Part shown: positions 707 to 13,680 of the stretch, piece by piece
Layout of the letters: each line of letters begins with the position of its first letter
How positions within the stretch are numbered: position 1 is the first letter of the stretch
Origin: a virus
Virus record (IMG/VR): IMGVR_UViG_3300049783_001579
Span: 1-26,468 of that record
Direction: 5' to 3' (one strand)
Length of the DNA: 26,468 nt
Made by a program: the position numbers and the translations under genes
Notes under the pieces: model-generated
Databases searched by the model: none
The model's input: the letters and a program-made list of their open reading frames with translations, nothing else
Told to the model about the DNA's origin: nothing

Positions 707-1555
707 ATGTCATTATTTAAAGATAATGCATGGGTATATGATTTAGAACAATTTCCAAATTTTCACTCTGGTATATTTTATAATATAAATACAGGTGAAT
801 ACAGAGAGTTTGTAATACACAAATCTAGAAATGATATTAAAGAGTATATCAAATTTTTAGAATCATGTGATGTATTAATAGGGTTTAATAATATTAATTA
901 TGATTACCCTTTACTGCATTATTTACTAACTCATAAACATTGTTCAGTTGAGGAACTGTACAGAGAATCACAACGTATAATAAAAGAACTATTTCCAGCA
1001 ATTAAAATGAAAAACGTTCTTATTAAACAAGTTGATTTGTTTAGAATTTGGCACTTTAATAATAAAGCAAGAATGACTAGTTTGAAAAAACTACAAGTTG
1101 CTATGAGATGGAAAAAAGTACAAGACTTGCCATTACATTATACAAGTTTTATTAAAGAAGAACAAATTCCAGAAATACTAAAATACAATAAAAATGATGT
1201 TGATTCAACGTATCAATTTTTTATCGAATCTAAACAAATTATAAAGTTAAGAGAAGATATAAGTGAAACGTATAATATTGATGTTATTAACAAATCTGAT
1301 GCGGGAATGGGAGAAGATATATTTGCTTCTTCTATGTCTAAAGCATTAAATGTTTCTATGTATGATCTTAAACAGCTAAGAACACATAGAGATACTATAA
1401 ATTTTAATGACTGTATTCTTCCATATGTTAAATACGCAAGTGAAGAGTTTAGTACATTATTGAATAAATTAAAAAATACAATTATTTCAGAAACAAAAGG
1501 CTCTATTAAAGATAGTGTCATTTATAAAGGTTTTAAATACGATTTTGGAACGGGT
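707..1555 (+). CDS. Family B DNA polymerase, exon 1 (3'-5' exonuclease domain)
   Basis: This is the N-terminal 283 residues of the phage replicative DNA polymerase, carrying the proofreading exonuclease. The DnaQ-like motifs are visible: Exo I YDLEQ (D12, E14), Exo II FNNINYD (D66) and Exo III YNKND (Y160, D164). The reading frame runs on to a TAG at 1565-1567, but family resemblance stops at FGTG. The conserved continuation GIHGC resumes at 4243. Joining 1555 to 4243 keeps the frame and gives a 607-residue protein with exonuclease then polymerase domains in the normal order. Without splicing, translation would give a 286-residue exonuclease-only product ending KLN. Confidence 0.9.
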
Positions 1556-1569
1556 AAACTTAATTAGAT

Positions 1570-2334
1570 ATGAACATAATAAATAATTCTAATTCTACAT
1601 ATAATTTAACAGAAAATAGATGTGGAGATAATTTTATGAATAGAGGAGGAGATAAACATGATTTTATTATAACAATACCAAAAACTTATTCAAAAATAGG
1701 ATACTCATTAAAAATAGCTAAGGATTTATTTAAGGCTAATGTAGTAGAAGAAAATGAAAATTTTAAAATAATCTTTGGTGATAAAAAAGGAATGTATCAA
1801 CTCTATTTTAGATATCTTAGAGATGAATTTAAAGATGAAACAGATTGTACTATAAGAATATACGAGTTAAAACACAAAAAACCAAACTGGTCTTTGTTGT
1901 TTTGCGCATATTTAATAATGCAATGTAAAAAAATGCCTGACTACTCATTAAATGGAGGATTTATAAACTCTTATCCTAGTTATGGCATGGCACAACTTGG
2001 TGGATATAATTATAAAAACATAGCACCTTTCTTAATTACAGAAGAGTTTTTTATAGATTACTTTAATGATTCTAAGTTCAAAGAAAAAACAGTATCTGGA
2101 AATGGGATGCTTTATAATAGTTATTATAAATTTGCAATAAATACAAAAAAAGAATGGGAATGTTATAAAGAATTTTTTAAACATTATGATAATTTACAAG
2201 CACCTTTTCTAAATTTAATTTCTATTGAAGAAAGAACTAACTTGTACGATTTAGGTAAATTCACTAAATTAGGTAAAATATTAGATCCTTTGAATAAAAG
2301 GTATATTAAAAAACAAATAAAAATACAAGCATGA
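1570..2334 (+). CDS. Hypothetical 254-aa intron-encoded protein
   Basis: I do not recognise this protein and see no nuclease motif. It is mixed alpha/beta in appearance, rich in aromatic residues, with a central segment (KPNWSLLFCAYLIMQCKKMPDY) and a Gly/Tyr-rich stretch (NGGFINSYPSYGMAQLGGYN). The ATG at 1570 follows the exon 1 TAG by two bases. An in-frame ATG at 1636 (MNRGGDKHDF) is an equally good start, because the intervening residues are Asn-rich and look like extended leader sequence. The end overlaps the next gene by ATGA. It lies in the presumed P1 loop of the intron, so it may be cargo, or ordinary phage genes moved there. Confidence 0.65.
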   Translation: MNIINNSNSTYNLTENRCGDNFMNRGGDKHDFIITIPKTYSKIGYSLKIAKDLFKANVVEENENFKIIFGDKKGMYQLYFRYLRDEFKDETDCTIRIYELKHKKPNWSLLFCAYLIMQCKKMPDYSLNGGFINSYPSYGMAQLGGYNYKNIAPFLITEEFFIDYFNDSKFKEKTVSGNGMLYNSYYKFAINTKKEWECYKEFFKHYDNLQAPFLNLISIEERTNLYDLGKFTKLGKILDPLNKRYIKKQIKIQA

Positions 2335-2915
2335 ATGTAATTTGTAAAGACAAGAAGAAATTTTCTTTAACAGTAGATAAGCCTTATGAGGTTTTAGAAG
2401 AAAATAATAGTCGTTTTACCATCATTAATGATAATGGTAAAACACAAAAGTATAGTAAACTTTTATTTGAAGAAGAGGTTATTGTACCTGATGAAAGTAC
2501 ATCAAATAATATTATTGAAACTATTTCTATATCAGATCAAATTATTTTTGTAGTTGATGGTGAAGAAGTATCAGTAGAAAATATTACTTTATCTGAAGAC
2601 ACAGAAATGAGCTGTGGTGTTCATCAAACATATAATATTTCAGGACTAATTGATGATTTAATAAAAGTTTTACCAGAAAGAGATAATCTTCGAAATGAAG
2701 TAATTGCATATATTGTAAAAGAAGTATTAGTACTTCATGAGCAAGAAGACTCTTGTGCTTTTAGGTTATTGAGTACTAATACTAATTCAACTAATTATTC
2801 TTATGTTGAAAATGCATTAGATCATTTAACTACAAGAAAAATGACTTCTCACAATCCTAGCTCAAAAAATGAGATTACTTTGTGGGTTGTGTTAGGTGCT
2901 TCATTAAGAAATTAA
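2331..2915 (+). CDS. Hypothetical 194-aa intron-encoded protein
   Basis: The N-terminal 45 residues look like a small beta-barrel (SH3/KOW-like) module: FSLTVDKPYEVLEE, then FTIINDNGKTQKYSKLLF. Modules of this kind are common in small phage proteins. The middle is acidic and beta-rich (residues 50-85). The C-terminal 100 residues are helical with a Leu-rich stretch (ISGLIDDLIKVLPERDNL). I recognise no enzyme motif. The ATGA overlap with the gene before and the one-base gap to the next gene suggest a co-translated trio (1570-3204) located within the presumed intron P1 loop. Confidence 0.65.
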   Translation: MNVICKDKKKFSLTVDKPYEVLEENNSRFTIINDNGKTQKYSKLLFEEEVIVPDESTSNNIIETISISDQIIFVVDGEEVSVENITLSEDTEMSCGVHQTYNISGLIDDLIKVLPERDNLRNEVIAYIVKEVLVLHEQEDSCAFRLLSTNTNSTNYSYVENALDHLTTRKMTSHNPSSKNEITLWVVLGASLRN

Positions 2916-2916
2916 T

Positions 2917-3204
2917 ATGAAAAGTACAGACATTTTAAAAAAAGAAATAAACTTGCTGGAACATAAACTTTCCAGCAAGTTTATTAAATCTGAAATCAAA
3001 AATGTTATAGAAAGTAAGATAAAAGACTTACAAAGTAAAATACCAAAAAATAAAATAGGTTACGTAAATGATTTTACTAAACCTAAATGGATAGATAATA
3101 GTTCTTCCATGTGCACAGGATGTCGTCGTAATTATCTTTTACCAGGCGAAGCTTTTTGTGAAGTTTGTGAAGATTCATATGAAAATAACTATCTTGGTAT
3201 TTAA
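2917..3204 (+). CDS. Hypothetical 95-aa protein with C-terminal zinc-ribbon-like cysteines
   Basis: The N-terminal half is Lys/Glu/Leu-rich and probably coiled-coil (KKEINLLEHKLSSKFIKSE). The C-terminal third carries CTGC and CEVC about 14 residues apart, which is a plausible four-Cys zinc site, followed by an acidic end. The gene contains a perfect 15-bp inverted repeat near its start, listed separately. It ends six bases before the first recognisable intron core element. No function is assigned; a small nucleic-acid- or protein-binding zinc protein is the best guess. Confidence 0.6.
   Translation: MKSTDILKKEINLLEHKLSSKFIKSEIKNVIESKIKDLQSKIPKNKIGYVNDFTKPKWIDNSSSMCTGCRRNYLLPGEAFCEVCEDSYENNYLGI
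2947..2984 (+). repeat. Perfect 15-bp inverted repeat within a coding sequence
   Basis: ATAAACTTGCTGGAA (2947-2961) is exactly repeated in inverse orientation at 2970-2984, with an eight-base loop CATAAACT. In RNA this gives a very stable hairpin for such an AT-rich sequence. It begins about 30 bases after the ATG of the 95-aa ORF and is not followed by a T-run, so it is not an ordinary terminator. It could be a structured part of the intron P1 loop, an RNA processing site or a translational control hairpin. Confidence 0.75.
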
Positions 3205-3690
3205 AAAACTGCCCCCTTGTACAGTAATGTGCATTGAACAACTCGGAATCCGTAAGGGGTATGTATACATCAAAAATAATGGTATATATGCTAACGGGGA
3301 AACTCTTAATTAATTAAATATGAAACAACAAAAAATAGTAGAATCTAGAGACTTATGGAAAGCCTTAATAGATGGATGGATAGTTAAGTTTGATTATCGT
3401 AATGCTAGAAAACATTGTGGGTATATAGTTGAAAAAGACAATCCCGTGCCGTCAATTGATAATGTTATATTAATAGCAGCTAGAACTTTACATCAAAATA
3501 GTAAAATTTTTACTTATACAGAATGTGAAAATCTTGCTAGAATACAATATAGTATAGAATTACAAAACGGCGTAGAGACTGACAACGAGCAGCCTAAAAT
3601 AAATACATGTAGAAAAGGTTTTAATGGTTGTGATAACTATAAACAAGACTCTGTATGTAGATGTAAATAGGTTGATGAGACAGTCCAGAC
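3205..3690 (+). ncRNA. Group I intron catalytic core (td-like)
   Basis: Proposed pairings, found by eye: P1 = exon GGGT (1552-1555) with GCCC (3211-3214), with the splice-site U facing G; P2 = CCCTT (3214-3218) with AAGGG (3254-3258), enclosing two small hairpins; P3 = TGCT (3289-3292) with AGCA (3588-3591); P4 = ACGGG (3294-3298) with CCCGT (3443-3447); P7 = GACTG (3577-3581) with CAGTC (3681-3685); P8 = AGCCTA (3591-3596) with TAGGTT (3668-3673). Their order matches a group I ribozyme. The remaining 3' elements are after the 168-aa ORF. P5 and P6 were not resolved, and P6 and P8 contain coding sequence. Confidence 0.75.
3320..3670 (+). CDS. Hypothetical 116-aa protein overlapping the intron core
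   Basis: The N-terminal part reads like a compact phage protein (RDLWKALIDGWIVKFDYRN, then EKDNPVPSIDNVILIAARTL). The last 22 residues are Cys-rich (CRKGFNGCDNYKQDSVCRCK). The ORF covers the 3' strand of P4, the 5' strand of P7, the P3 3' strand and the P8 loop, and its TAG stop lies in the P8 3' strand. The start ATG follows TTAATTAATTAAAT. Translation through the core would compete with folding. The Cys-rich tail, which corresponds to ribozyme sequence, may be only a read-through of structured RNA. I am moderately sure that the N-terminal half is coding. Confidence 0.5.
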   Translation: MKQQKIVESRDLWKALIDGWIVKFDYRNARKHCGYIVEKDNPVPSIDNVILIAARTLHQNSKIFTYTECENLARIQYSIELQNGVETDNEQPKINTCRKGFNGCDNYKQDSVCRCK

Positions 3691-3712
3691 TACAACTATT
3701 TAACAAAATAAT

Positions 3713-4219
3713 ATGATAAAAGAAAATAAAGCATGTGAAGAAATACCTTTAGAAGTAAAAAAAGAAGTCTGTGATAGTAAAGAAACAAGTAAATTAAAAT
3801 ATACTGACTTTATAGATCCTGAAACACCTCCTAAATATTCTGAAACAAGAGGTTTTCATAATTGGACAATGTATGGTAGATTTAATTATAAAAATTGTTC
3901 AATATGTATTAGTGATTTTCAATCAGGATGTAATATTGGTGTTTTGTATAATTATACAGGAATGGGTTATGGATATGCTAAAGATGATAAAATAGAAAAC
4001 AATGACTTTACTAAACTTTTAAAAATGGTTATAGTTGAGCTAGAAAAACCTGGTGAGCATAACTATGGTAAACTAATTACTTCTAATGGTACATCAAATA
4101 AATATATTAGACCTTTTGAAGATGCTGGTTTTAAAACAATTGATATTATCCAAAACTTAGCACATGGTCGTGAGTCTACAGATAAACAAACGTTTATGCA
4201 TTATAATTTTGTTAAATAA
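3713..4219 (+). CDS. Hypothetical 168-aa intron-encoded protein
   Basis: I do not recognise this protein. It has a Lys/Glu-rich N-terminus, then an apparently globular region with aromatic and Gly-rich segments (FHNWTMYGRFNYKNCSICISDF, GCNIGVLYNYTGMGYGYAK). It ends with a segment (KYIRPFEDAGFKTIDIIQNLAHG) loosely reminiscent of the end of an acyltransferase-type fold, which is not enough for a call. It lies between P7/P8 and the P9-like hairpin, a usual place for an intron ORF, but no homing endonuclease signature is visible. It stops two bases before the P9-like hairpin. Confidence 0.65.
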   Translation: MIKENKACEEIPLEVKKEVCDSKETSKLKYTDFIDPETPPKYSETRGFHNWTMYGRFNYKNCSICISDFQSGCNIGVLYNYTGMGYGYAKDDKIENNDFTKLLKMVIVELEKPGEHNYGKLITSNGTSNKYIRPFEDAGFKTIDIIQNLAHGRESTDKQTFMHYNFVK

Positions 4220-4242
4220 GCTTAGGTGACTAAGTGTGGTAG
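4220..4242 (+). ncRNA. Intron 3' end: P9-like hairpin and terminal G
   Basis: CTTAG (4221-4225) pairs with CTAAG (4230-4234) across a GTGA loop, a typical stable tetraloop of the GNRA class. After it come TGTGGTA and the terminal G at 4242, then exon 2 (GGT ATA CAT, encoding GIH). The position fits P9 plus omega-G of a group I intron. The exact 3' splice site is fixed by the polymerase reading frame as well as by the G. Confidence 0.7.
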
Positions 4243-5217
4243 GGTATACATGGTTGTATAAAACCTGGGGTTTATGAAAACTCCGAAACTGAAATAATTG
4301 TAGATATTGATGTAAAAAGTTATTATCCTAACTTAGCAATATCTAATAACTTTTATCCAAAGCATTTAGGATTAAAATTTTGTGGTGTTTATAAAAACCT
4401 TTATGAGGAAAGAAAAAAACATGCAAAAGGAACTCCTGAAAACTATGGATTAAAAATTGCATTAAATGGTGCTTATGGTAAATCTAATGATGTGTACAGT
4501 TTTCTGTATGATCCTAAATTTACTATGGACATAACTATTAACGGACAATTACTTTTAACAATGTTGGCTGAAAAGTTGGTAGACAATATACCTAACTTGA
4601 CAATGTTACAAGTCAATACAGATGGTGTTACTGTTAAAATTAAAAAAGAATACTATGATAAACTTATTAATATATGTAATTCATGGGAAAAACTTACTAA
4701 TTTAGAACTAGAGTACGCTGAGTATTCTAAAATGATAATACGTGATGTAAATAATTATATTGCTGAATATACGAATGGTGATACAAAATGTAAAGGTAGC
4801 TTTGAGATAGAAAGAGACTGGCACAAAGACCAATCTATGAAAATAGTACGTAAATCAGTTTTTAATTATTTTATAAAAAACATACCAATTGACGAAACAA
4901 TTGAAAAAGGAGATGCTTGGGATTTTATAAAAGCTTTTAGTGTTACTAAAGGTTGGACGGCTGAAGAACATACTGTAAAAGGTGTTAATAAGCTTCAAAA
5001 AACAAACAGATACTTAATTTCTAAAAATGGTAATGGTTTTTATAAACATCATGAAGATAATCGTTTACATGCAATAGAAGCAGGATATGGGGTTATAATA
5101 TTAAACGATATTAATAACCCAAATAAATACAGTGATTGTATTAATAGGCAGTATTACATTAAAGAATGCTGGAAAATAATTAATGCTGTTGAAAATAAAC
5201 AATTAACTTTATTTTAA
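4243..5217 (+). CDS. Family B DNA polymerase, exon 2 (polymerase domain)
   Basis: This is the C-terminal 324 residues of the replicative polymerase. Numbering on the joined protein, motif A is DIDVKSYYPNLAI (catalytic D306), motif B is KIALNGAYG (K354, N358, Y361, G362) and motif C is QVNTDGVTV (D410). The canonical motif C is DTD; here its first acidic residue is Asn408. The exon has no start codon of its own before motif A. A GTG at 4492 is internal and would give a fragment lacking motifs A and B. A strong hairpin follows the stop, so this ends a transcription unit. Confidence 0.9.
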   Translation, partial: GIHGCIKPGVYENSETEIIVDIDVKSYYPNLAISNNFYPKHLGLKFCGVYKNLYEERKKHAKGTPENYGLKIALNGAYGKSNDVYSFLYDPKFTMDITINGQLLLTMLAEKLVDNIPNLTMLQVNTDGVTVKIKKEYYDKLINICNSWEKLTNLELEYAEYSKMIIRDVNNYIAEYTNGDTKCKGSFEIERDWHKDQSMKIVRKSVFNYFIKNIPIDETIEKGDAWDFIKAFSVTKGWTAEEHTVKGVNKLQKTNRYLISKNGNGFYKHHEDNRLHAIEAGYGVIILNDINNPNKYSDCINRQYYIKECWKIINAVENKQLTLF

Positions 5218-5263: not shown

Positions 5264-5875
5264 ATGGAAAAAGAATCAGTAATTACTGTATTTGATGAAG
5301 TTAAAAAAGAGTTACTATTAGAGCCTATTTTATATTACAATAACAAAACAATTAATAATTTTTTTTCAAAGAAATTACCATCTATCAATGAGGTTTCTAA
5401 TGAAAATACAGTTGTTGAAATTATTGTACCTGATGACAAAATAACAATAGAATGGGTTTCGTTTTTATGTAGTATAGATTTAAAATGTTTTTATGATGGA
5501 GTTAGTGTTAATATTTATAAAAAAGAACATACTCAACTATCATTTAAAATAACTTTAGTTTTAGTAAATTATTTAATGTTAAAACGTAAATCAATATTAT
5601 CTACAATAACATGGATAAAATATAATTTTCCAACATTAACTAATTGGGAAAAACTAATTTTAGCACATTACAGTAATAATCAAAGTTATCTTGAAAATAC
5701 TATAATACCTAAATGTTATTTAAAAGACTATAGTAAAAACTTTAAAAAATACAAAAAAATAGACTCATTATTTAATAATGAAATACCTGAAGATGTTAAA
5801 AATAAAATATCTTCAGCATTAGACACAAAAAATATTAAAAATATTAAAAAACTATTATGTCAAATAAAAAAATAA
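5264..5875 (+). CDS. Hypothetical 203-aa protein
   Basis: I do not recognise it. The N-terminal 100 residues mix beta and hydrophobic segments (IEWVSFLCSIDLKCFYDGVSVNIYK), the centre has a hydrophobic helix (ITLVLVNYLMLKRKSIL), and the C-terminus is a run of Lys/Asn-rich helices ending in repeated KNIKNIKKL. It overlaps the next gene, the gamma-glutamyl hydrolase-like gene, by 19 bases. It may therefore be translated as the first gene of the amide-ligase block, or be unrelated. Confidence 0.7.
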   Translation: MEKESVITVFDEVKKELLLEPILYYNNKTINNFFSKKLPSINEVSNENTVVEIIVPDDKITIEWVSFLCSIDLKCFYDGVSVNIYKKEHTQLSFKITLVLVNYLMLKRKSILSTITWIKYNFPTLTNWEKLILAHYSNNQSYLENTIIPKCYLKDYSKNFKKYKKIDSLFNNEIPEDVKNKISSALDTKNIKNIKKLLCQIKK

Positions 5876-6558
5876 GAGTATTTTGTCCTAGAACAACTAA
5901 ATATACTTCAAAAGAACTTATTGGGTGGTTACCAAATACAGAACATGCAGATAAAATTGAAGATTGTGATTTGATTATTTTTCAAGGAGGTGCTGATGTT
6001 AATCCATCATTGTATAATCAGTTAGAAAATACCAGAACTAGACCAATGGGACCTAATGCTGAACTTGTTGATATCAATGCATATCGAACAGGAATGATTA
6101 ATAATATACCTATGATAGGTATATGTAGAGGTGCTCAATTACTTACAGTAATGAATGGTGGTAGGTTGATTCAAGATGTTGAAAATCACGGTAAAGATCA
6201 TAAAATTAAATTTAATGATGGAGAAGTGCATTTAATGACAAGTACACATCATCAAATGATGAATCCATTTTTTGATTTAAAAGAAGGTGAGGATTTTGAA
6301 ATTATTGCACAAAGTGAAGTTCCTTTGTCTACTTATTACATGGAAGAAAACGGTATAGATGTTAGACTTGGTTTAAGAACTTATTCTGATAAAAATGATG
6401 TAATTAGAGAACCCGAAATTGTTTTTTATCCAAAAACAAACTGTATGTGTATACAAGGTCACCCTGAATATACATGGGCTAATAAAGAAACAGTAAGTAA
6501 AATCAATAAAATTATTAATGAAAAAATGAAAATTTATGAATCTATGCTTATTGCCTAA
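5857..6558 (+). CDS. Class I glutamine amidotransferase / gamma-glutamyl hydrolase-like (peptidase C26)
   Basis: The 233 residues form a complete flavodoxin-like class I amidotransferase domain. Visible signatures are IIFQGGADVNPSLY (residues 40-53), the nucleophile elbow GICRGAQ (Cys90), STHHQM (129-134) and the His/Glu of QGHPEYTW (H202, E204). All three catalytic residues are present. Proteins of this type (for example PuuD, gamma-Glu-GABA hydrolase) cleave gamma-glutamyl amide bonds and often sit next to GS-like ligases. Here a GS-like ligase lies two genes downstream. It probably hydrolyses a gamma-glutamyl bond in the cytoplasm. The substrate is unknown. It could instead supply ammonia as an amidotransferase subunit. 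Confidence 0.85.
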   Translation: MSNKKIRVFCPRTTKYTSKELIGWLPNTEHADKIEDCDLIIFQGGADVNPSLYNQLENTRTRPMGPNAELVDINAYRTGMINNIPMIGICRGAQLLTVMNGGRLIQDVENHGKDHKIKFNDGEVHLMTSTHHQMMNPFFDLKEGEDFEIIAQSEVPLSTYYMEENGIDVRLGLRTYSDKNDVIREPEIVFYPKTNCMCIQGHPEYTWANKETVSKINKIINEKMKIYESMLIA

Positions 6559-7216
6559 TAATTCAGCACTTATTGAATCATATAAAACTTCATCACCAGT
6601 ACCTAATCTTGTTTTATGTGATAACAAAGGTAACGCTCTTACTGAAAAAGTAAGATGTAAAGATTACTTTCAAGATGTATTCTGGGGACAATACCAAAAA
6701 AAAGTAGGAGAATCCGTTACTAAATATGGTTTTACTTGGAAAGTTATACCTAAATATCATAATAAATTATGGTATTATTTAGGAATGTCTTACATTAATG
6801 AAGATATGAATAATTATTCTAGTAATTTATTATCTTTTTTAAATAAAATTGAAGATAAATTAGGTTTTAAAAAATCAACAATTATTGTAACAGATGATAC
6901 TAAACATCTTTTAATTAGGTTTAATAAATCTTGGACTAAAAAACCATATTTATTAAGTTCTTTTTTGTTATTTAGTAGAATTGGTTTAAAGTATGAAAAT
7001 ACAACAATATCTAATTTTTTAAAAAAATGGCCAGATAGTCAAGAAAAATATGATAATGCTAATATAAGAAATTCGATGCCTCTTTTATTAAAAATAGTAG
7101 ATGGAGTTGTTTTTAAAGATACATGGAAATCTATTAGAGATATTGAGGAATGTCATAGTAATAGCGGTGTAGTCGCTTTTAATAATAAAAATTATAAAAT
7201 TATTAATAATGAGTAA
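6536..7216 (+). CDS. Hypothetical 226-aa protein within the amide-ligase cluster
   Basis: The protein has no family I recognise. Segments such as WGQYQKKVGESVTKYGFTWKVIPKYHNKLWYYL and a later FKKSTIIVTDDTKHLLIRFN suggest an alpha/beta globular protein. The ATG overlaps the preceding gene by 23 bases, and the end overlaps the COOH-NH2 ligase by 8 bases, so it is embedded in the cluster translationally. That makes it a candidate partner, substrate-recognition protein or modification target. It is missing from the enzyme families usually listed in such clusters. Confidence 0.75.
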   Translation: MNLCLLPNNSALIESYKTSSPVPNLVLCDNKGNALTEKVRCKDYFQDVFWGQYQKKVGESVTKYGFTWKVIPKYHNKLWYYLGMSYINEDMNNYSSNLLSFLNKIEDKLGFKKSTIIVTDDTKHLLIRFNKSWTKKPYLLSSFLLFSRIGLKYENTTISNFLKKWPDSQEKYDNANIRNSMPLLLKIVDGVVFKDTWKSIRDIEECHSNSGVVAFNNKNYKIINNE

Positions 7217-8006
7217 AAAAAAAGTTGAGTTTATAGCTTTTGGTACAGATCCTGAAGTTTTCTTAGTTGATAATAAAGGTAATGCTGTATCAGCAGAAGG
7301 TTTGATTGGAGGTACTAAAGAAGAACCTATTCCAATAAGTGAGCATGGTCATGCGTTACAAGAAGATAATGTAATGGTGGAGTTTAATATCCCTCCAGTT
7401 AGAGATGCTGGAAGACTTAAACGAGAAATTTCATTTTGTTTAAAAACTATTAAGAATAGAGTAGGTTATGAAATAGCAATTGTACCATCTATACTTTTTA
7501 CTGAAGAACAGTTATCTACTGACCAAGGAGCTATGTTTGGATGTTCACCAGATAATGATGTATGGTCTAGAATGGAAAATCCAACTGTTGAGCCTGAGGC
7601 AAATAGACGTTATGCAGGTGGTCATATACATATAAGCTACAATAAGTTCACACCAGAAGTCACAGAAGATTTAGTTAAAGCAATGGATTTGTTTTTAGGA
7701 GTACCTTCTGTAATTATGGATAGTGATGAAAATCGTAAACGTGTATATGGTAAAGCAGGTCGTTTTAGATTTACTGAATATGGTTTTGAGTATCGTACAT
7801 TAAGTAACTTTTGGTTAGTAAATGAAGATTTAATGGAATGGGCTTTTAACCAAACTATGCTTGCTATAGATTATGTAAATGAAGAGAATGAAATTAAACA
7901 GTTTGCTGAAAAAATACAAACTTGCATTAACACAAATAATGCAGAGATGGCAAAAGATATATGTAAAGAAAACAATATTAAATTATTACAACATGTTAGA
8001 GTATGA
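7209..8006 (+). CDS. COOH-NH2 ligase, phiEco32-like type 2 (GS/GCS fold)
   Basis: This is a predicted ATP-dependent amide-bond-forming enzyme of the glutamine synthetase/glutamate-cysteine ligase superfamily. Diagnostic segments are FGTDPEVFL at residues 11-19 (E16), VMVEFNIPP (E58), AGGHIHISY (H139, H141) and EYGFEYRTLSNFW (E194, R196). The acidic and His residues should bind the metals and ATP. The length (265 aa) and order match the phage COOH-NH2 ligase family described from phiEco32-like phages, where association with ATP-grasp, amidotransferase and cyclotransferase genes led to a prediction of cell-wall or peptide modification. The acceptor and donor are not known. Confidence 0.88.
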   Translation: MSKKKVEFIAFGTDPEVFLVDNKGNAVSAEGLIGGTKEEPIPISEHGHALQEDNVMVEFNIPPVRDAGRLKREISFCLKTIKNRVGYEIAIVPSILFTEEQLSTDQGAMFGCSPDNDVWSRMENPTVEPEANRRYAGGHIHISYNKFTPEVTEDLVKAMDLFLGVPSVIMDSDENRKRVYGKAGRFRFTEYGFEYRTLSNFWLVNEDLMEWAFNQTMLAIDYVNEENEIKQFAEKIQTCINTNNAEMAKDICKENNIKLLQHVRV

Positions 8007-8814
8007 GCAAATAACTCCAGAAATAATTAAAGAAGTTTTAAATCAAATAGGTGTTGAGGAAGTTGTTTTAGTAGAAGGAGACGAATATGCTTTTAGTGGT
8101 TCATATAAAAGAAGTGATAAGTACTATAATAGTAAAGGTTTTGTGTATGTAACTTTTTTAAAAAAAATTAAAGTAAATAAACTTAATCTCGAAAGCTATA
8201 ATTGCACTGCTTTGCTTAATGGTGAAGAAATTATATTATATGACAGTTCTTTAGAATATCTAGAAAAATCAGTAGCTATTAACAATAGTATTAATATTAC
8301 TTCAAAAGGTGATGTTTTATATTGTTATCAAAATAGGGTTTATTCTCGTCGAGGAAGAATACTATCAGCTATTCCTAAATTATACAAAATAGGAACAATT
8401 AATGAAAATTTAATAGGAAAAAAAATTAAATTAAAAAAAAACATTGATATAATAGGTTTTTATAAAAAAAATAAATGTTTTGGTCTTTGTTATAATAAAG
8501 AATATATATTTAGTCAGAAAGAAGTTATTCATCTTATAAATGATAACTGTTTTGTGAATGACAGTTCTACTCTTTACACTTTACCTTTTGATGAACTTTA
8601 TGAATTAGATATTACATCACCTCTTTTAAAAGAAGGTGATACTGTAAAAATGATAAAGCATGACAAATCAGTAATAGGTTTAAGAGTAGGTGGTGAATAT
8701 ATAACATCTAAAATTATTCAATGTGGTGGAAGTTTTCTTGTAAAAGTTACAGATGGTAATAAATCTTATACTTCAAATATTAAAAATTTTAAAAAAACAT
8801 GTCGAAAAGAATAA
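7993..8814 (+). CDS. Hypothetical 273-aa beta-rich protein within the amide-ligase cluster
   Basis: The start at 7993 (MLEYEQITPEI) is preferred over an in-frame ATG at 7879, because it leaves only a 14-base overlap with the ligase gene. No enzyme motif is visible. The protein looks like several small beta-barrel modules in a row: residues about 28-60, a Lys-rich middle repeat (IGKKIKLKKNIDIIGFYKKNK), and a C-terminal module (LLKEGDTVKMIKHDKSVIGLRVGGEYITS) typical of phage SH3/KOW-like domains. It overlaps the ATP-grasp gene by 16 bases. A scaffold or substrate-binding role is an inference from context only. Confidence 0.75.
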   Translation: MLEYEQITPEIIKEVLNQIGVEEVVLVEGDEYAFSGSYKRSDKYYNSKGFVYVTFLKKIKVNKLNLESYNCTALLNGEEIILYDSSLEYLEKSVAINNSINITSKGDVLYCYQNRVYSRRGRILSAIPKLYKIGTINENLIGKKIKLKKNIDIIGFYKKNKCFGLCYNKEYIFSQKEVIHLINDNCFVNDSSTLYTLPFDELYELDITSPLLKEGDTVKMIKHDKSVIGLRVGGEYITSKIIQCGGSFLVKVTDGNKSYTSNIKNFKKTCRKE

Positions 8815-9656
8815 TTACAAAATTTAGACCAATAATTTTAAGTAGACATCCATCACATAAAGTGTTAAGAGCTGCTTATAAAGCATTACCTTTAAATCCT
8901 TTTAGATCTATTATTAGATTTGGAAGCACTACATCTAAAGAAATGTATGAATTGGGTAAATTTACGTCTCGTCAAAAAATTAAAGTAGAATTAAATTCTA
9001 TCAAAGCTATTGGAAACTCTAGTAATAAAGTTAGAATGAAAGAGTGTTTTGATAAAGAAAATGTAAATACTTGTAAATGGTGGACAAAATTACCTGACAA
9101 TTTAGAGGAACTATCATTCCCTATAATTGCAAAGTTACGTAATGGTTCTCGTGGAAAAGGCATGGAAATGCTAAAAACAGCTAGTCAATTACAATTATTT
9201 ATTAACTCTAAAAACATATCACATTATATTTTTGAAGAGTATTTTAGTGGTATTAGAGAATATCGTATACATGTTAATAAAAATGGTTGTTTTTATACAT
9301 GTAGAAAAATGATTAAATCTGATACTCCTGATGATAAAAAATGGTTTAAAAACGATAGTAACTGTGTTTGGTATTTAGAATCAAATGAAAATTTTGATAA
9401 GCCACTAAACTGGAATAATATTGTAAAAGAATGTGTTAAAGCCTTAAATGCTGTAGGTTTAGATTTTGGTGCATGTGACGTAAGAGTTCAATCAGGAACA
9501 GATAGAGAAAATAACATTCGTCAAAATCCTGATTTTAAAATTATTGAAATTAATTCAGCACCAAGTTTTGGTGAAAAAAACACAACAGAATTAGAAACTC
9601 ATGTAGCAAAAGCTTATGCTGAAATGCTACCTAAATTATTAAGAGAATATGCATAA
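8799..9656 (+). CDS. RimK-like ATP-grasp ligase
   Basis: The 285-residue protein has the ATP-grasp layout. IIAKLRNGSRGKGMEML (109-125) gives the nucleotide-binding Lys112 and the glycine loop. YIFEEYFSGIREYRIHV (143-159) is the hinge. LDFGACDVRV (221-230, D227) and KIIEINSAPSFGE (247-259, E250, N252) give the metal ligands. Enzymes of this type form an acyl-phosphate on a carboxylate and join it to an amine, as in glutamate addition to proteins or small molecules. It overlaps the cyclotransferase-like gene by 8 bases, a pairing seen in butirosin synthesis (BtrJ ligase and BtrG cyclotransferase). The substrate is unknown. Confidence 0.88.
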   Translation: MSKRIITKFRPIILSRHPSHKVLRAAYKALPLNPFRSIIRFGSTTSKEMYELGKFTSRQKIKVELNSIKAIGNSSNKVRMKECFDKENVNTCKWWTKLPDNLEELSFPIIAKLRNGSRGKGMEMLKTASQLQLFINSKNISHYIFEEYFSGIREYRIHVNKNGCFYTCRKMIKSDTPDDKKWFKNDSNCVWYLESNENFDKPLNWNNIVKECVKALNAVGLDFGACDVRVQSGTDRENNIRQNPDFKIIEINSAPSFGEKNTTELETHVAKAYAEMLPKLLREYA

Positions 9657-10041
9657 AGTATTTGTATATGGTACTTTACGAAAAAGTAAAGGTAATCATA
9701 GATTGTTAACACAAATAAATGCTGCTTTTATAGGAAATGCAGTAACAGTTAATAAATATCATCTTACAACAAGTGGTCTTCCGTTTGTAAACAAAAATAT
9801 AGAAACTAGTCAAATAGTTGGTGAAGTATACCAAGTAGATGATAGTGGTTTATCTTCTTTAGACGGATTAGAAGGATACAATCCTAATAACCATGAAGGA
9901 AGTTGGTACAAAAGAGAAGTGATACCAGTTCTTCTAGAAAATGGAAATACTGATGAAGCTGCTTTATATTTTAATGAAGATCAAGGAAATACTGTTGTTT
10001 ATAACGGTGATTTTGTTAACCCAATTACAGAAAAAAAATAA
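9649..10041 (+). CDS. Gamma-glutamylcyclotransferase-like protein (AIG2/GGCT family)
   Basis: The 130 residues form one complete GGCT-type barrel. It opens with VFVYGTLRKSKGNHRLL (the YGTLR substrate loop, residues 7-11), includes LPFV and GEVYQV strands, and carries LDGLEGY with the probable catalytic Glu75. WYKREVIPVLL (86-96) is the usual Tyr/Arg strand. The family releases a gamma-glutamyl group as 5-oxoproline. Next to an ATP-grasp ligase, it most simply removes a glutamyl group that the ligase added. It is separated from the amidotransferase-like gene that follows by only three bases. Confidence 0.88.
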   Translation: MHKVFVYGTLRKSKGNHRLLTQINAAFIGNAVTVNKYHLTTSGLPFVNKNIETSQIVGEVYQVDDSGLSSLDGLEGYNPNNHEGSWYKREVIPVLLENGNTDEAALYFNEDQGNTVVYNGDFVNPITEKK

Positions 10042-10044
10042 AAA

Positions 10045-11394
10045 ATGTGTGGATTATTAGGATATAGCGGTAAACAACCGTTTAACAAAGAAAAACTAAG
10101 ATTATTATTTTATGCTAACGAAACCAGAGGTAGGCACTCTGCTGGTTTTTATAATGAAAATAAAGCAATTGTTTTTGAAAATAGACTAGAAAAAACATTA
10201 GGAGAAGTTTCTGAAAAAATGTTACCAACATTTGAACCTGTTGAAACATCTTTGTTTATTGGTCATACTAGAGCAGCAACCCTAGGTGAAAAAACTATTG
10301 AAAATGCTCACCCTTTCTTATTTGGTAATGTAATAGGTGCTCATAATGGCACATTAAAAAATCATAAATATTTAATATCAAACTATAACAAAGCATTTCC
10401 TAATAGAGGATTTGATGATAAAAATATTAACATGGATTCTAAGATTTTCTTTCATTATATTAATGAAGTAAACTCTTTAGATATTGTTAAAGATTTTGAC
10501 GGTGCTGCTGCATTAATATGGAGAGACGCTAGACATGAAAAAGATATTGTAAATATCTGGAGAAACTATGAGCGTCCTTTGCATTATGGCTATATTGATG
10601 ATGGAATGTATATTTCTTCTGAAAAAGGACCATTAGCAGCTATTGGTTGTGTTGACATTAAAAGTTTTGATGTAAATAAACATTATGAAATTCTAGATGG
10701 TAAAATTTTAAGTGAAACTGTTTTAATAAATTCTCCAAAAAGAATAAGTACAGTTAATGCATTAGCTAATTTTACAGACTACAAGAATGTACCTGAAATG
10801 GTTGATGATATTTTAGAATATTTAAAATTATCTACTACAACACTTTTTTATCATGATATTTCAAATGAAATTCCAGTTAGTTCTTTAAAAATTCCAGGAA
10901 AAAGAGGTATACTTTATAAGTATAAAAATGGTGAAGAAGACAAAATCATTACTGAAAAAGGTAAAGATAATCGTGTATCTACTGTTACTTATTTTGATAA
11001 TAAATTAAATACATTTATTATAATAACTACTTATTTATCAGGAACAATCACTAAACGTAGAGTTTTTATTGATAGTTCTTTTGCAAATAGCTTTTGGGAT
11101 TTTATTGAAAAAAAGAGAAATGGCTTGTTGGGAACTAAGAAGAACGATAAGCCAGCGTTTGAAAATAATTTCTTAGAAGAAGATGATGATGAAGAAGATG
11201 ATGGTTTTGTTGAGTTACCAGTAAGTGAAATAAGATTATTACTAAATAATATAAATGTTAGTGTTTCAAAAGTTATTAATCATTTAAATGATGCAAACTA
11301 TAATAACAAAATTATAGAAGAGCTTGTTGTCACACAACATGACGTTGCTGAATTTTTAAAATTAGTAGAAATAGATGAAACTAAAGAGGTCTAA
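10045..11394 (+). CDS. Class II glutamine amidotransferase-like Ntn hydrolase with C-terminal extension
   Basis: MCGLLGYSG places the nucleophile Cys at residue 2, exposed after Met removal. Other class II amidotransferase motifs are TRGRHSAGFY (27-36), HTRAAT (74-79), NAHPF (87-91) and AHNGT (99-103). This domain releases ammonia from glutamine, or cleaves a gamma-glutamyl amide as a peptidase. There is no synthase domain such as the GlmS isomerase domain. Instead residues about 230-360 are an unassigned beta-rich region. It is followed by an acidic tract (EEDDDEEDD at about 378-386) and a helical tail. The ligase that uses the ammonia would be a separate protein. Overlap with the next gene, an amidoligase, is 20 bases. 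Confidence 0.87.
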   Translation: MCGLLGYSGKQPFNKEKLRLLFYANETRGRHSAGFYNENKAIVFENRLEKTLGEVSEKMLPTFEPVETSLFIGHTRAATLGEKTIENAHPFLFGNVIGAHNGTLKNHKYLISNYNKAFPNRGFDDKNINMDSKIFFHYINEVNSLDIVKDFDGAAALIWRDARHEKDIVNIWRNYERPLHYGYIDDGMYISSEKGPLAAIGCVDIKSFDVNKHYEILDGKILSETVLINSPKRISTVNALANFTDYKNVPEMVDDILEYLKLSTTTLFYHDISNEIPVSSLKIPGKRGILYKYKNGEEDKIITEKGKDNRVSTVTYFDNKLNTFIIITTYLSGTITKRRVFIDSSFANSFWDFIEKKRNGLLGTKKNDKPAFENNFLEEDDDEEDDGFVELPVSEIRLLLNNINVSVSKVINHLNDANYNNKIIEELVVTQHDVAEFLKLVEIDETKEV

Positions 11395-12949
11395 AAATAA
11401 AAAAAAAGTAAATTCAAAAGTAATTGATTCTTTAGGTAGAAAAATATCATCAGAAGATGCCGTCCTTATAGATGGCATCTTCTATGATGCTACTAAAAAT
11501 AACCCACCTTTAATTATAATGAGAAAAAACCATTTTGGTTATTCATATCCAAGTTGTGTGTTATTTGATGAAGAAAGCTGTATAAAATATAAAAACAAAT
11601 ATTATCATAAAAATGACATGATTAAAATTTATTTAAAAGACGGAAAAGAATTAATTTTTTCAGATAGAAATGATGCTTGTTGTGAGATAGGTGAAGAAAA
11701 GTTTAGTAAATTAATTCCTGGTAGAAATCAAGACGAATTATTATTTTTTGAAACACTAATTATTGCATCTAAAAGAAAATTTGGAATTTGTTTAAAAGAT
11801 ACTGAATATTTAAAACCATTAAAAGAATGTGTATCTGACAAAAAAGATAAAGTACAATATAAAAAAACTAAATTTTCTGCATCTTCTTCAGATTCATATA
11901 CTAAAAAAGAAGCTATTAAATTAGGTGTTTCAACAGCCACTACTATTGGTACAGGGGGATTAGACTATACTTTTGGTATAGAAATTGAAACTATTTCAGG
12001 AAAAATACCTGATTGGCAATATAAGCATAATTCTTTAAACTTAGATGCTGTACATGATGGATCTTTAAGAGATGAAGATGGTAATGTTTATGGTGGTGAA
12101 TATGTAACAGGTGTTTTAAAAGGAGATGCTGGATTAGCAAATCTTTATCGTTGTGTTAAAACAATTCATGAATATTGTAGCATTACTAAGCAATGTGGTA
12201 TACATGTACATGTAGGTGGAGCTAATTTTAATGAAAAGTTTACTATTGATGCTTATTTACTAGGACTACAAATAGAAAGAGAAATATTTGAAATATTTCC
12301 TCCTTCTAGAAGAACTAATGATTATACAGGTTTTTTAAAAAAATGGGACTTTAAAAAATACATTAGTGAACATGGTGACAAATATGGCTATGCTTTAGCA
12401 TGGGAAGCTTTATTTAAAGATATGGCAAATATGTCTCATGTAAAAAATAGAGAGTTAGGTGAAAATTTAAATAGATTTATAAATCATCCTGGAGGCAGAT
12501 ATACTGACAGATACAGTCATAATGTTCCTTTAGCAAATTTATATCGTTACAAATGGTTAAACCTTATTACTTGCAACTTTAATACTAGAAATGTTGAACC
12601 TAAAAAAGATGGATTAAATAATGGTGTTCCATTTACATTAGAATTTAGACCACATAGTGCTAGTATGAATTTTAAAAAAATTAAAAACTGGTTGTTATTT
12701 TGTATGGCTTATGTTAACTATGTTGAAAACAACAGTAGTGAGATAATTAAAAGAGATGATATAACAATTAGTGATATTTTAACGTTTACTTATGGTAAAA
12801 CTAAAGTAAATCATACAGATATTATTAATTATTTTGAAGAAAGAAAAAATAGGTTTAAAGGTAATGCAGGTAAAACTAATGAACTTTTAGAATACAGTGA
12901 AAAAGTTTCACATAATGCAACTAGAACTAGAGAAATAATAAACACTTAA
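11375..12949 (+). CDS. Putative amidoligase (GS/GCS-fold, amidoligase_2 type) with long N-terminal extension
   Basis: The catalytic domain begins near residue 197: LDYTFGIEIETISG (E203, E205), LDAVHDGSL (D228), YGGEYVTG (E242), CGIHVHVGG (H277, H279) and TLEFRPHSASMN (E423, R425). These are the metal- and ATP-binding positions of the amidoligase family related to glutamate-cysteine ligase. The first 190 residues are extra: a Lys-rich start, then two or three small beta modules (VLIDGIFYDAT, KYKNKYYHKNDMIKIYLKDG) and a Ser/Lys-rich linker. The extension could dock a partner or substrate. It is the second GS-like ligase of this cluster and not a close duplicate of the one at 7209. Confidence 0.88.
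   Translation: MKLKRSKNKKKVNSKVIDSLGRKISSEDAVLIDGIFYDATKNNPPLIIMRKNHFGYSYPSCVLFDEESCIKYKNKYYHKNDMIKIYLKDGKELIFSDRNDACCEIGEEKFSKLIPGRNQDELLFFETLIIASKRKFGICLKDTEYLKPLKECVSDKKDKVQYKKTKFSASSSDSYTKKEAIKLGVSTATTIGTGGLDYTFGIEIETISGKIPDWQYKHNSLNLDAVHDGSLRDEDGNVYGGEYVTGVLKGDAGLANLYRCVKTIHEYCSITKQCGIHVHVGGANFNEKFTIDAYLLGLQIEREIFEIFPPSRRTNDYTGFLKKWDFKKYISEHGDKYGYALAWEALFKDMANMSHVKNRELGENLNRFINHPGGRYTDRYSHNVPLANLYRYKWLNLITCNFNTRNVEPKKDGLNNGVPFTLEFRPHSASMNFKKIKNWLLFCMAYVNYVENNSSEIIKRDDITISDILTFTYGKTKVNHTDIINYFEERKNRFKGNAGKTNELLEYSEKVSHNATRTREIINT
11452..11483 (+). repeat. 10-bp perfect inverted repeat in amidoligase gene
   Basis: AGAAGATGCC (11452-11461) is complementary to GGCATCTTCT (11474-11483) with a 12-base loop. 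It lies about 80 bases into the amidoligase gene, and no T-run follows. In such AT-rich sequence a 10-bp perfect stem with four G-C pairs stands out. It may slow ribosomes or polymerase, or be chance. Confidence 0.45.
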
Positions 12950-12954
12950 AATAT

Positions 12955-13680
12955 ATGTGCTTAATTATAGTAAAAAAAAGAGGTACTAAAGTAACTTCTG
13001 AGCTGTATAAATCTATATCTAGGTCATATGCTTTAAGAAACAAAGATGGGTTTGGATTTTCTATCAAAAAACCAAATTCAGATATATACATTTCAAAAGG
13101 ATACTTAAATTTAAAATCTTTTATACTAGCAATTAAATCTCATCGCCCTTCAACAGGTGATGAATTAATGATACATTTACGTAAAGTATCTGCTGGTAAA
13201 AAAAACGTTGAAAATTGTCATCCTTACGTGTGTTCTGATAAACATGATGAAATAATTCAGGAAGAAGGGTATGTAAAGAAACCAGTAATGTCACATAATG
13301 GTACTTTTATAAAGTATAGTTATGACAAAGATCATTCTGATACATATCTTTTTGTAAAAAATGTTTTATCAGATATAAATATGGCTAATATTCTTAAATA
13401 TTTAAATAAAAAAGACTATACCTCTTCTATATCATTGTTTATTCAAACATCAAGAGTTGCTATTATGTATCCTAACATAAATAAAAAGTTTAACAACCCT
13501 TTGTGTATGTTAGGTAAATGGGAATTCGATGAATTAAGTGGTTTATATTTTTCTAATACTAGCTATCTTGGAGATAATTGTCCCCAACATGGAGAAAATT
13601 TTAAAAATATGCCTTATTGGGAAAAAGAAGAAAGAAAAACAAAAAATAAACAAATAAGAATGCCTTTAGTAATGGATTAA
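12955..13680 (+). CDS. Second class II glutamine amidotransferase-like Ntn hydrolase
   Basis: MCLIIVKKRG again puts Cys at residue 2, as expected for an N-terminal nucleophile. NKDGFGFS (34-41) corresponds to the RxxDGxG-type loop, MIHLRKVSAG (about 74-83) to the HxR strand, ENCHPYV to the NxHP loop, and MSHNGT (about 111-116) to the oxyanion HNG motif. At 241 residues it is a single domain. It is clearly different from the larger homologue at 10045, so the cluster has two. It probably deamidates glutamine or cleaves a gamma-glutamyl or N-terminal amide for one of the two ligases. It closes the block; a helicase gene follows four bases later. Confidence 0.83.
   Translation: MCLIIVKKRGTKVTSELYKSISRSYALRNKDGFGFSIKKPNSDIYISKGYLNLKSFILAIKSHRPSTGDELMIHLRKVSAGKKNVENCHPYVCSDKHDEIIQEEGYVKKPVMSHNGTFIKYSYDKDHSDTYLFVKNVLSDINMANILKYLNKKDYTSSISLFIQTSRVAIMYPNINKKFNNPLCMLGKWEFDELSGLYFSNTSYLGDNCPQHGENFKNMPYWEKEERKTKNKQIRMPLVMD

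Follow-up and report, generated by a model that had tools for sequence, protein, structure and literature searches.

Which pathway, if any, is encoded by a phage gene block in which enzymes for the formation and cleavage of amide bonds follow one another, and on what does it act? The question is raised by a 26,468-base IMG/VR virus fragment (27% G+C; the window, i.e., the whole stretch of DNA analyzed), in which no tRNA genes were found and to which none of 50,697 phage records is closely similar at the DNA level. Nine plus-strand open reading frames (ORFs) stand in succession at positions 5857 to 13680, comprising seven enzymes (C26, LIG2, an ATP-grasp ligase, GGCT, AMLIG, and the amidotransferases GAT1 and GAT2) and two ORFs without a family match. 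The junctions between them range from -23 to +5 nt, with one exception. An earlier note on this DNA had read this region as an overlapping block of seven amide-bond enzymes, and all seven assignments hold. The features are as follows.

5857..6558, + strand: C26, class I glutamine amidotransferase-fold amidase of the PuuD-like gamma-glutamyl hydrolase family (PF07722, 1e-17; phrog_7218, 1e-31)
6536..7216, + strand: u6536, no known family (no Pfam, PHROG, NCBIfam, or PADLOC match)
7209..8006, + strand: LIG2, COOH-NH2 ligase type 2 of the GCS/GS fold (PF14395, 7e-14; phrog_3815, 7e-70)
7993..8814, + strand: u7879, no known family (ORF open from 7879; no family match)
8799..9656, + strand: ATP-grasp ligase, RimK-like (phrog_2599, 2e-33; Pfam under the cut-off)
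9649..10041, + strand: GGCT/AIG2, gamma-glutamyl(amine) cyclotransferase-like (PF06094, 9e-20)
10045..11394, + strand: GAT1, class II (Ntn) glutamine amidotransferase domain with a unique C-terminal half (PF13522, 3e-14)
11375..12949, + strand: AMLIG, Amidoligase_2 of the GS/GCS fold with an extra N-terminal region of about residues 1 to 190 (PF12224, 2e-11)
12955..13680, + strand: GAT2, another protein with the class II amidotransferase fold (weak PF13230 match only, 0.002; class II residues)

The catalytic residues that the earlier note had pointed out are invariant or nearly so across relatives of the enzyme families, at 17 to 73% identity to the window. In LIG2, 29 alignment columns are invariant, including E52, E58, H139, H141, E194, and R196, and the AMLIG relatives share E203, E205, D228, E242, H277, H279, E423, and R425. 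No solved structures similar by sequence to either ligase were found. Foldseek searches matched the AF2 model of LIG2 (pLDDT 92) to plant GCL and YbdK (probability 1.0) and that of AMLIG (pLDDT 84) to YbdK/GCS2, GS, and Dop/PafA; both ligases are thus modeled with the YbdK/GCS/GS fold. Missing active sites, which the earlier note had named as fatal to its reading, were not encountered; the sites are intact.

The ATP-grasp protein, with invariant residues E154, R156, D222, D227, and E250, is nearest to RimK alpha-L-glutamate ligases and cyanophycin synthetase (PDB profile E value, 1e-8). Its match to TIGR00768 (rimK_fam; 2e-7, 30.8 bits) does not reach the cut-off of 143.4, so it is termed only RimK-like. 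The GGCT protein has its catalytic Glu75 within an LDxLEG motif, and E75 is conserved in the alignment. C26 contains the class I triad (Cys90, His202, and Glu204), the Cys of which is lost in two relatives (L010 and L012). Its nearest PDB sequences are Lin1909, SpuA-like, and PuuD proteins, and it scores 19 bits against the NCBIfam PuuD equivalog PRK11366 (cut-off, 266, not reached). GAT1 matches GlmS and PurF in PDB profiles (about 1e-17), and no synthetase domain was recognized in it; C2, R76, N101-G102, and D131 are invariant in 20 relatives. The corresponding residues of GAT2 (Cys2, Arg76, Asn115-Gly116, and Asp129) are likewise invariant in its relatives. Glutaminase activity is predicted for both proteins from the N-terminal Cys, the Arg, the Asn-Gly oxyanion pair, and the Asp.

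The two remaining ORFs are less widely shared. A u6536 homolog occurs in 8 of 52 related cassettes, in some of them elsewhere in the genome, and the sole homolog found for u7879 is a 31% identical protein in locus L003. The u7879 gene probably starts at the ATG at 7993, adjoining the LIG2 stop, rather than at 7879. We also compared u5264, u6536, and u7879 with the uncharacterized genes upstream of LIG2 in PaP3, phiEco32, 7-11, ZRK32, and cr108_1, and no homology was found.

A family A DNA polymerase is encoded upstream of the block, and the interrupted polymerase gene gave no credible Rfam match to a known intron. Downstream lie genes for a helicase, a DnaB-like helicase, Sak4, a primase, and a class II ribonucleotide reductase (RNR), and an exonuclease gene is also near the block, which therefore occupies a phage replication region. 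PADLOC models gave no match to 10 proteins, and a reading of the block as an anti-phage defense system was rejected on this basis. No membrane segments were predicted in the block proteins.

The block is almost certainly a phage amidoligase cassette of the kind carried by phiEco32-, LUZ24-, RIO-1-, and crAss-like phages, as the earlier note had suspected for the phiEco32 type. It combines the features by which this cassette is recognized: two GS-fold COOH-NH2 ligases (PF14395 and PF12224), an ATP-grasp ligase and a class II glutamine amidotransferase in one block, a GGCT-like cyclotransferase, and a position among replication or early genes. The cassette was described in 2017 as a seven-gene "peptidoglycan modification cassette" of PSA-HP1 (PMC5498523, citing Hardies et al. 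2013 and Iyer et al.), with RIO-1, phiEco32, 7-11, PA11, tf, MR299-2, LUZ24, PaP3, and CW02 as further carriers; the same genes are present in UFV-P2 (PMC3890496). The module also occurs in U17, for which two roles were proposed, namely, a block to superinfection or a wall readied for lysis (PMC11945000). Mass spectrometry of phage SU10 preparations revealed cassette proteins (PMC4281155). None of the papers that we read demonstrates the cassette chemistry, either biochemically or from envelope data, in agreement with the statement in the earlier note; since 2009 this chemistry has not moved beyond prediction, despite the wide spread of the cassette among phages.

To quantify gene linkage, related viral loci were gathered by LIG2 alone, hidden Markov models were then run on all ORFs, and the 52 loci whose flanks reach at least 6 kb to the left and at least 7 kb to the right were counted. 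AMLIG, ATP-grasp, and GAT1 were all present in 52/52 loci, a grouping that exceeds chance and that disposes of the concern, raised in the earlier note, that the genes might never co-occur in relatives. The gene order varies among lineages, which indicates a linkage beyond the simple inheritance of a single block. A control set was gathered by an unrelated gene, Sak4; in its 13 records no shorter than 40 kb, LIG2, AMLIG, and ATP-grasp were all present in 4 and all absent from 9. Thus, the four-enzyme core (LIG2, AMLIG, ATP-grasp, and GAT1) is obligate, whereas GGCT (42/52 loci) and C26 (37/52 loci) are accessory; their absence from 10 and 15 loci, respectively, shows that cleavage of gamma-glutamyl bonds can be dispensed with. 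A search for proteins in which two cassette enzymes are fused found none. Both results count against the explanation favored below. These counts (52/52 for the core and 4 versus 9 in the control) are new, and the obligate core shows which genes should be deleted or coexpressed together in phiEco32 or LUZ24.

LIG2 was detected in at least 311 of the 50,697 sequenced phage records and, judged by this gene, the cassette extends across phages of Pseudomonas, Escherichia coli, Vibrio, cyanobacteria, and Rhizobium as well as crAss-like phages. Where hosts are listed for isolate phages that carry LIG2, every one is of the Gram-negative (diderm) type. Among 84,980 species genomes, a scan restricted by peptide patterns recovered at least 8 LIG2 contigs (a lower bound), 8/8 of which carry other cassette genes. 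Of the 299 genomes searched in one phylum, the starting-point genome alone has LIG2, and no plasmid has it. This rarity marks the module as essentially viral, and the reading of the cassette as host-derived auxiliary genes was rejected.

The window has a second amidotransferase in addition to the published core. A tree of 22 GAT2 and 34 GAT1 rows splits the two groups at 100/100 support; GAT2 is therefore an old separate subfamily, and its origin as a recent GAT1 duplicate was rejected. The order GAT1-AMLIG-GAT2 was found in the window and in eleven other contigs, all in one supported AMLIG clade of at least 12 contigs. Pairs of AMLIG and GAT2 also occur without LIG2 (L123, L128, Methylophilales phage MEP401 [L037], and Marvin gp105-106), which makes GAT2 a movable amidoligase partner that joined the cassette in the lineage of the window. 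A class II amidotransferase gene lies within 70 nt of 40 of the 46 AMLIG genes. Together with the standalone pairs, this adjacency supports a hand-over from amidotransferase to ligase, and the GAT1-AMLIG-GAT2 order points to this partnership as the first subject for an assay.

The cassette enzymes very probably form one pathway. GAT1 and GAT2 would hydrolyze glutamine and supply the adjoining AMLIG with ammonia or with a gamma-glutamyl moiety, and LIG2 and the RimK-like ATP-grasp ligase would presumably couple carboxylates with amino acids or amines at the expense of ATP. Gamma-glutamyl bonds may be cleaved by C26 and GGCT, either in the editing or deprotection of the product or in the recycling of host gamma-glutamyl compounds. 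The likeliest single acceptor would be the peptide part of host cell wall precursors, a proposal that citing papers credit to Iyer et al. 2009 and also to Hardies et al. 2013; PMC10580990 cites the former for a wall role in phiEco32. The cytoplasmic nature of the enzymes, the exclusively diderm listed hosts of the isolate phages, and the presence of gamma-glutamyl enzymes make this the best single guess. Peptidoglycan precursor as the target is nonetheless a tentative choice, since the ATP-grasp protein is closer to RimK and cyanophycin synthetase than to the cell wall Ddl ligases and no cell wall-binding or transport part was found in the cassette; these two features leave room for small-molecule and protein targets. 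The usual place of the cassette among replication genes fits nonwall targets as well. As a whole, the explanation that we slightly favor is a known cassette enlarged by GAT2, encoding one cytoplasmic pathway with a cell wall precursor peptide as its likeliest acceptor.

The alternative that survives best, although we consider it rather unlikely, is a small-molecule pathway in which gamma-glutamyl amides or peptides are synthesized or salvaged by the cassette enzymes, in nitrogen or amine metabolism or as a small effector against host defense, and no polymer is changed. The GCS-like ligase, the amidotransferases, C26, and GGCT would then form a cycle of gamma-glutamyl protection and deprotection. 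Analogous cycles operate in putrescine catabolism (Puu), in the ergothioneine pathway (Egt), and in butirosin biosynthesis. The kinship of C26 to PuuD, SpuA, and Lin1909, along with its NCBIfam match to gamma-glutamyl-CDP-amidate hydrolase, agrees with such a cycle, as do a weak EgtC match of GAT1 and the membership of GGCT in PF06094. However, the cassette lacks an oxidoreductase, a carrier, and a transporter, and some loci are missing GGCT and C26. A role in nitrogen metabolism was proposed for the same cassette in phage ZRK32 (PMC10945688, eLife 2024), but the growth effect of that phage was not linked to the cassette genes. A bolder proposal, held at a similarly low level of confidence, is that the four-enzyme core represents an essentially virus-only pathway to a conjugate not known in cells, whether a small molecule that is amidated or bears a gamma-glutamyl group or an adduct of the wall or of a protein, with the second amidotransferase in the lineage of the window giving AMLIG two different donors or acceptors.

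Modification of proteins is unlikely and ranks below the small-molecule reading. The ATP-grasp and GS-fold ligases would in this case modify proteins of the host or the phage with glutamate or a peptide tag, as in the RimK-S6 or PafA-Pup systems. RimK alpha-L-glutamate ligases are the closest relatives of the ATP-grasp protein, Dop/PafA is among the matches of the GS-fold models, and the title of Iyer et al. 2009 names protein tagging as one of the predicted roles of these families. The Dop/PafA match is not specific, however, because GS, GCS, and PafA share one fold and YbdK/GCS matches are better. In addition, no tag protein was recognized in the cassette, and several free-standing deamidases or amidases would be superfluous for tagging.

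Hypermodification of DNA bases, in which amino groups would be added to a nucleotide or base as protection against restriction, is very improbable. Some phage DNA bases bear amino acids or amines, and the cassette lies among replication genes in the phages inspected, both of which count in its favor. Against it, no base-activating enzyme (hydroxymethylase, DNA kinase, or glycosyltransferase) was recognized in the window, and of 16 restriction enzymes tried on the DNA of the cassette-bearing LUZ24-like phage U17, 11 cut it. RsaI, HpaI, EcoRV, and SmaI served for the construction of phage tf libraries, and HaeIII also cuts the DNA of this phage. Among the targets listed in the earlier note (host peptidoglycan or capsule, a DNA-base precursor, a protein tag, or a small molecule), the DNA-base precursor has thus become less likely. 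Finally, a chance collection of unrelated amide-bond enzymes by a gene-rich phage, with no shared pathway, is scarcely credible: gene overlaps are normal in compact phage genomes and gene order does vary from lineage to lineage, but the four genes co-occur in every locus despite differing orders and identities down to about 20%, the Sak4 control is all-or-none, and LIG2 was never seen without AMLIG, ATP-grasp, or GAT1.

Comparison with the closest known systems places the preferred reading, the GAT2-enlarged cassette, in context. The RIO-1/PSA-HP1 cassette resembles the block in its two GS-fold amidoligases, ATP-grasp ligase, GGCT, glutamine amidotransferase, and location in the replication region; the window has GAT2 and two uncharacterized ORFs in addition and a different gene order, and its phage is AT-rich and unrelated to RIO-1/PSA-HP1. 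The phiEco32 genes phi32_77 to phi32_86 and PaP3/LUZ24 orf42 to orf48 share with the window GGCT, ATP-grasp, a GAT1-type protein, Amidoligase_2, and the COOH-NH2 ligase. They differ from it in that C26 was not found and GAT2 is absent. In phiEco32 and PaP3, a protein of about 200 amino acids with no known function (phi32_85 and PaP3 orf47) lies between the ligases; its homology to C26, which would have accounted for the absence of C26 there, was rejected (hhalign probability, 0.1). The crAss-like phages phi14:2 and cr108_1 carry ATP-grasp, LIG2, GAT1, and AMLIG in that order between the primase and later replication genes, with ATP-grasp proteins 44 to 47% identical to that of the window; both lack GAT2, and in the stretches examined phi14:2 has GGCT but no C26, whereas cr108_1 has C26 but no GGCT. 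Mycobacteriophage Marvin (gp105-106) and MEP401 have GAT2 adjoining an Amidoligase_2-like protein, as in the window, whereas LIG2, ATP-grasp, C26, and GGCT were not found alongside. Rhizobium phage RHph_N3_13 encodes all seven families, with amidotransferases of both the GAT1 and the GAT2 type, but its genes are spaced by small ORFs and GAT2 follows ATP-grasp rather than AMLIG.

The claim of the earlier note that two ligases and three amidases or amidotransferases exceed the known form does not survive these comparisons. Two GS-fold ligases, an ATP-grasp ligase, and a glutamine amidotransferase are present in phiEco32 (phi32_77, phi32_80, phi32_83, phi32_84, and phi32_86), PaP3, 7-11, and RIO-1, and GGCT accompanies them in almost every case. 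Two ligases are thus the norm for this cassette, and seven genes (PMC5498523) or all seven families (RHph_N3_13) have precedents. The sole addition over the published core is GAT2, which is itself recurrent, and the block is a real, correctly annotated, and slightly extended ordinary member of a known phage cassette.

The family A DNA polymerase gene of the window (707-5217) is split immediately upstream of the DIDVKSYYPN motif, and its two pieces, separated by approximately 2.7 kb with unknown ORFs, align with consecutive parts of the intact polymerase of the related contig L005:

725-1561, 5' piece, residues 2-279 of the L005 polymerase
4243-5214, 3' piece, residues 278-601 of the L005 polymerase

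The polymerase genes of two other related contigs (L003 and L004) are interrupted at the same site. Searches of the window interruption yielded no credible intron match in Rfam and no endonuclease match in Pfam. Shine-Dalgarno-like motifs precede only 2 of all 34 gene starts in the window, and the leaders are rich in A at positions -2, -3, and -11. Both features match expectations for a phage of Bacteroidota, suggesting such a host.

Another contig carrying the amide-bond enzyme cassette (L114) was binned into a MAG labeled "uncultured archaeon," probably erroneously; a truly archaeal origin would be evidence against peptidoglycan as the cassette target. Two cassette homologs of the C26 amidase are apparently pseudoenzymes, judging from the loss of the catalytic cysteine:

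L010:8397-9083, C26 homolog
L012:5904-6608, C26 homolog

C26 was not found in lineages that encode, between the ligases LIG2 and AMLIG, an unknown protein (~200 aa) of the PaP3 orf47/phi32_85 family:

L028:7734-8357
L029:8803-9408
L039:17704-18321

This family was rejected as a C26 candidate, there being no detectable relation. Stand-alone class II amidotransferases of the GAT2 type, mostly annotated as "hypothetical," occur at six loci (L036, L037, L123, L128, L136, and L137) from phages of Christensenellales, Methylophilales, and Mycobacterium, where most adjoin an amidoligase; a Bifidobacterium phage also encodes a GAT2-type protein.
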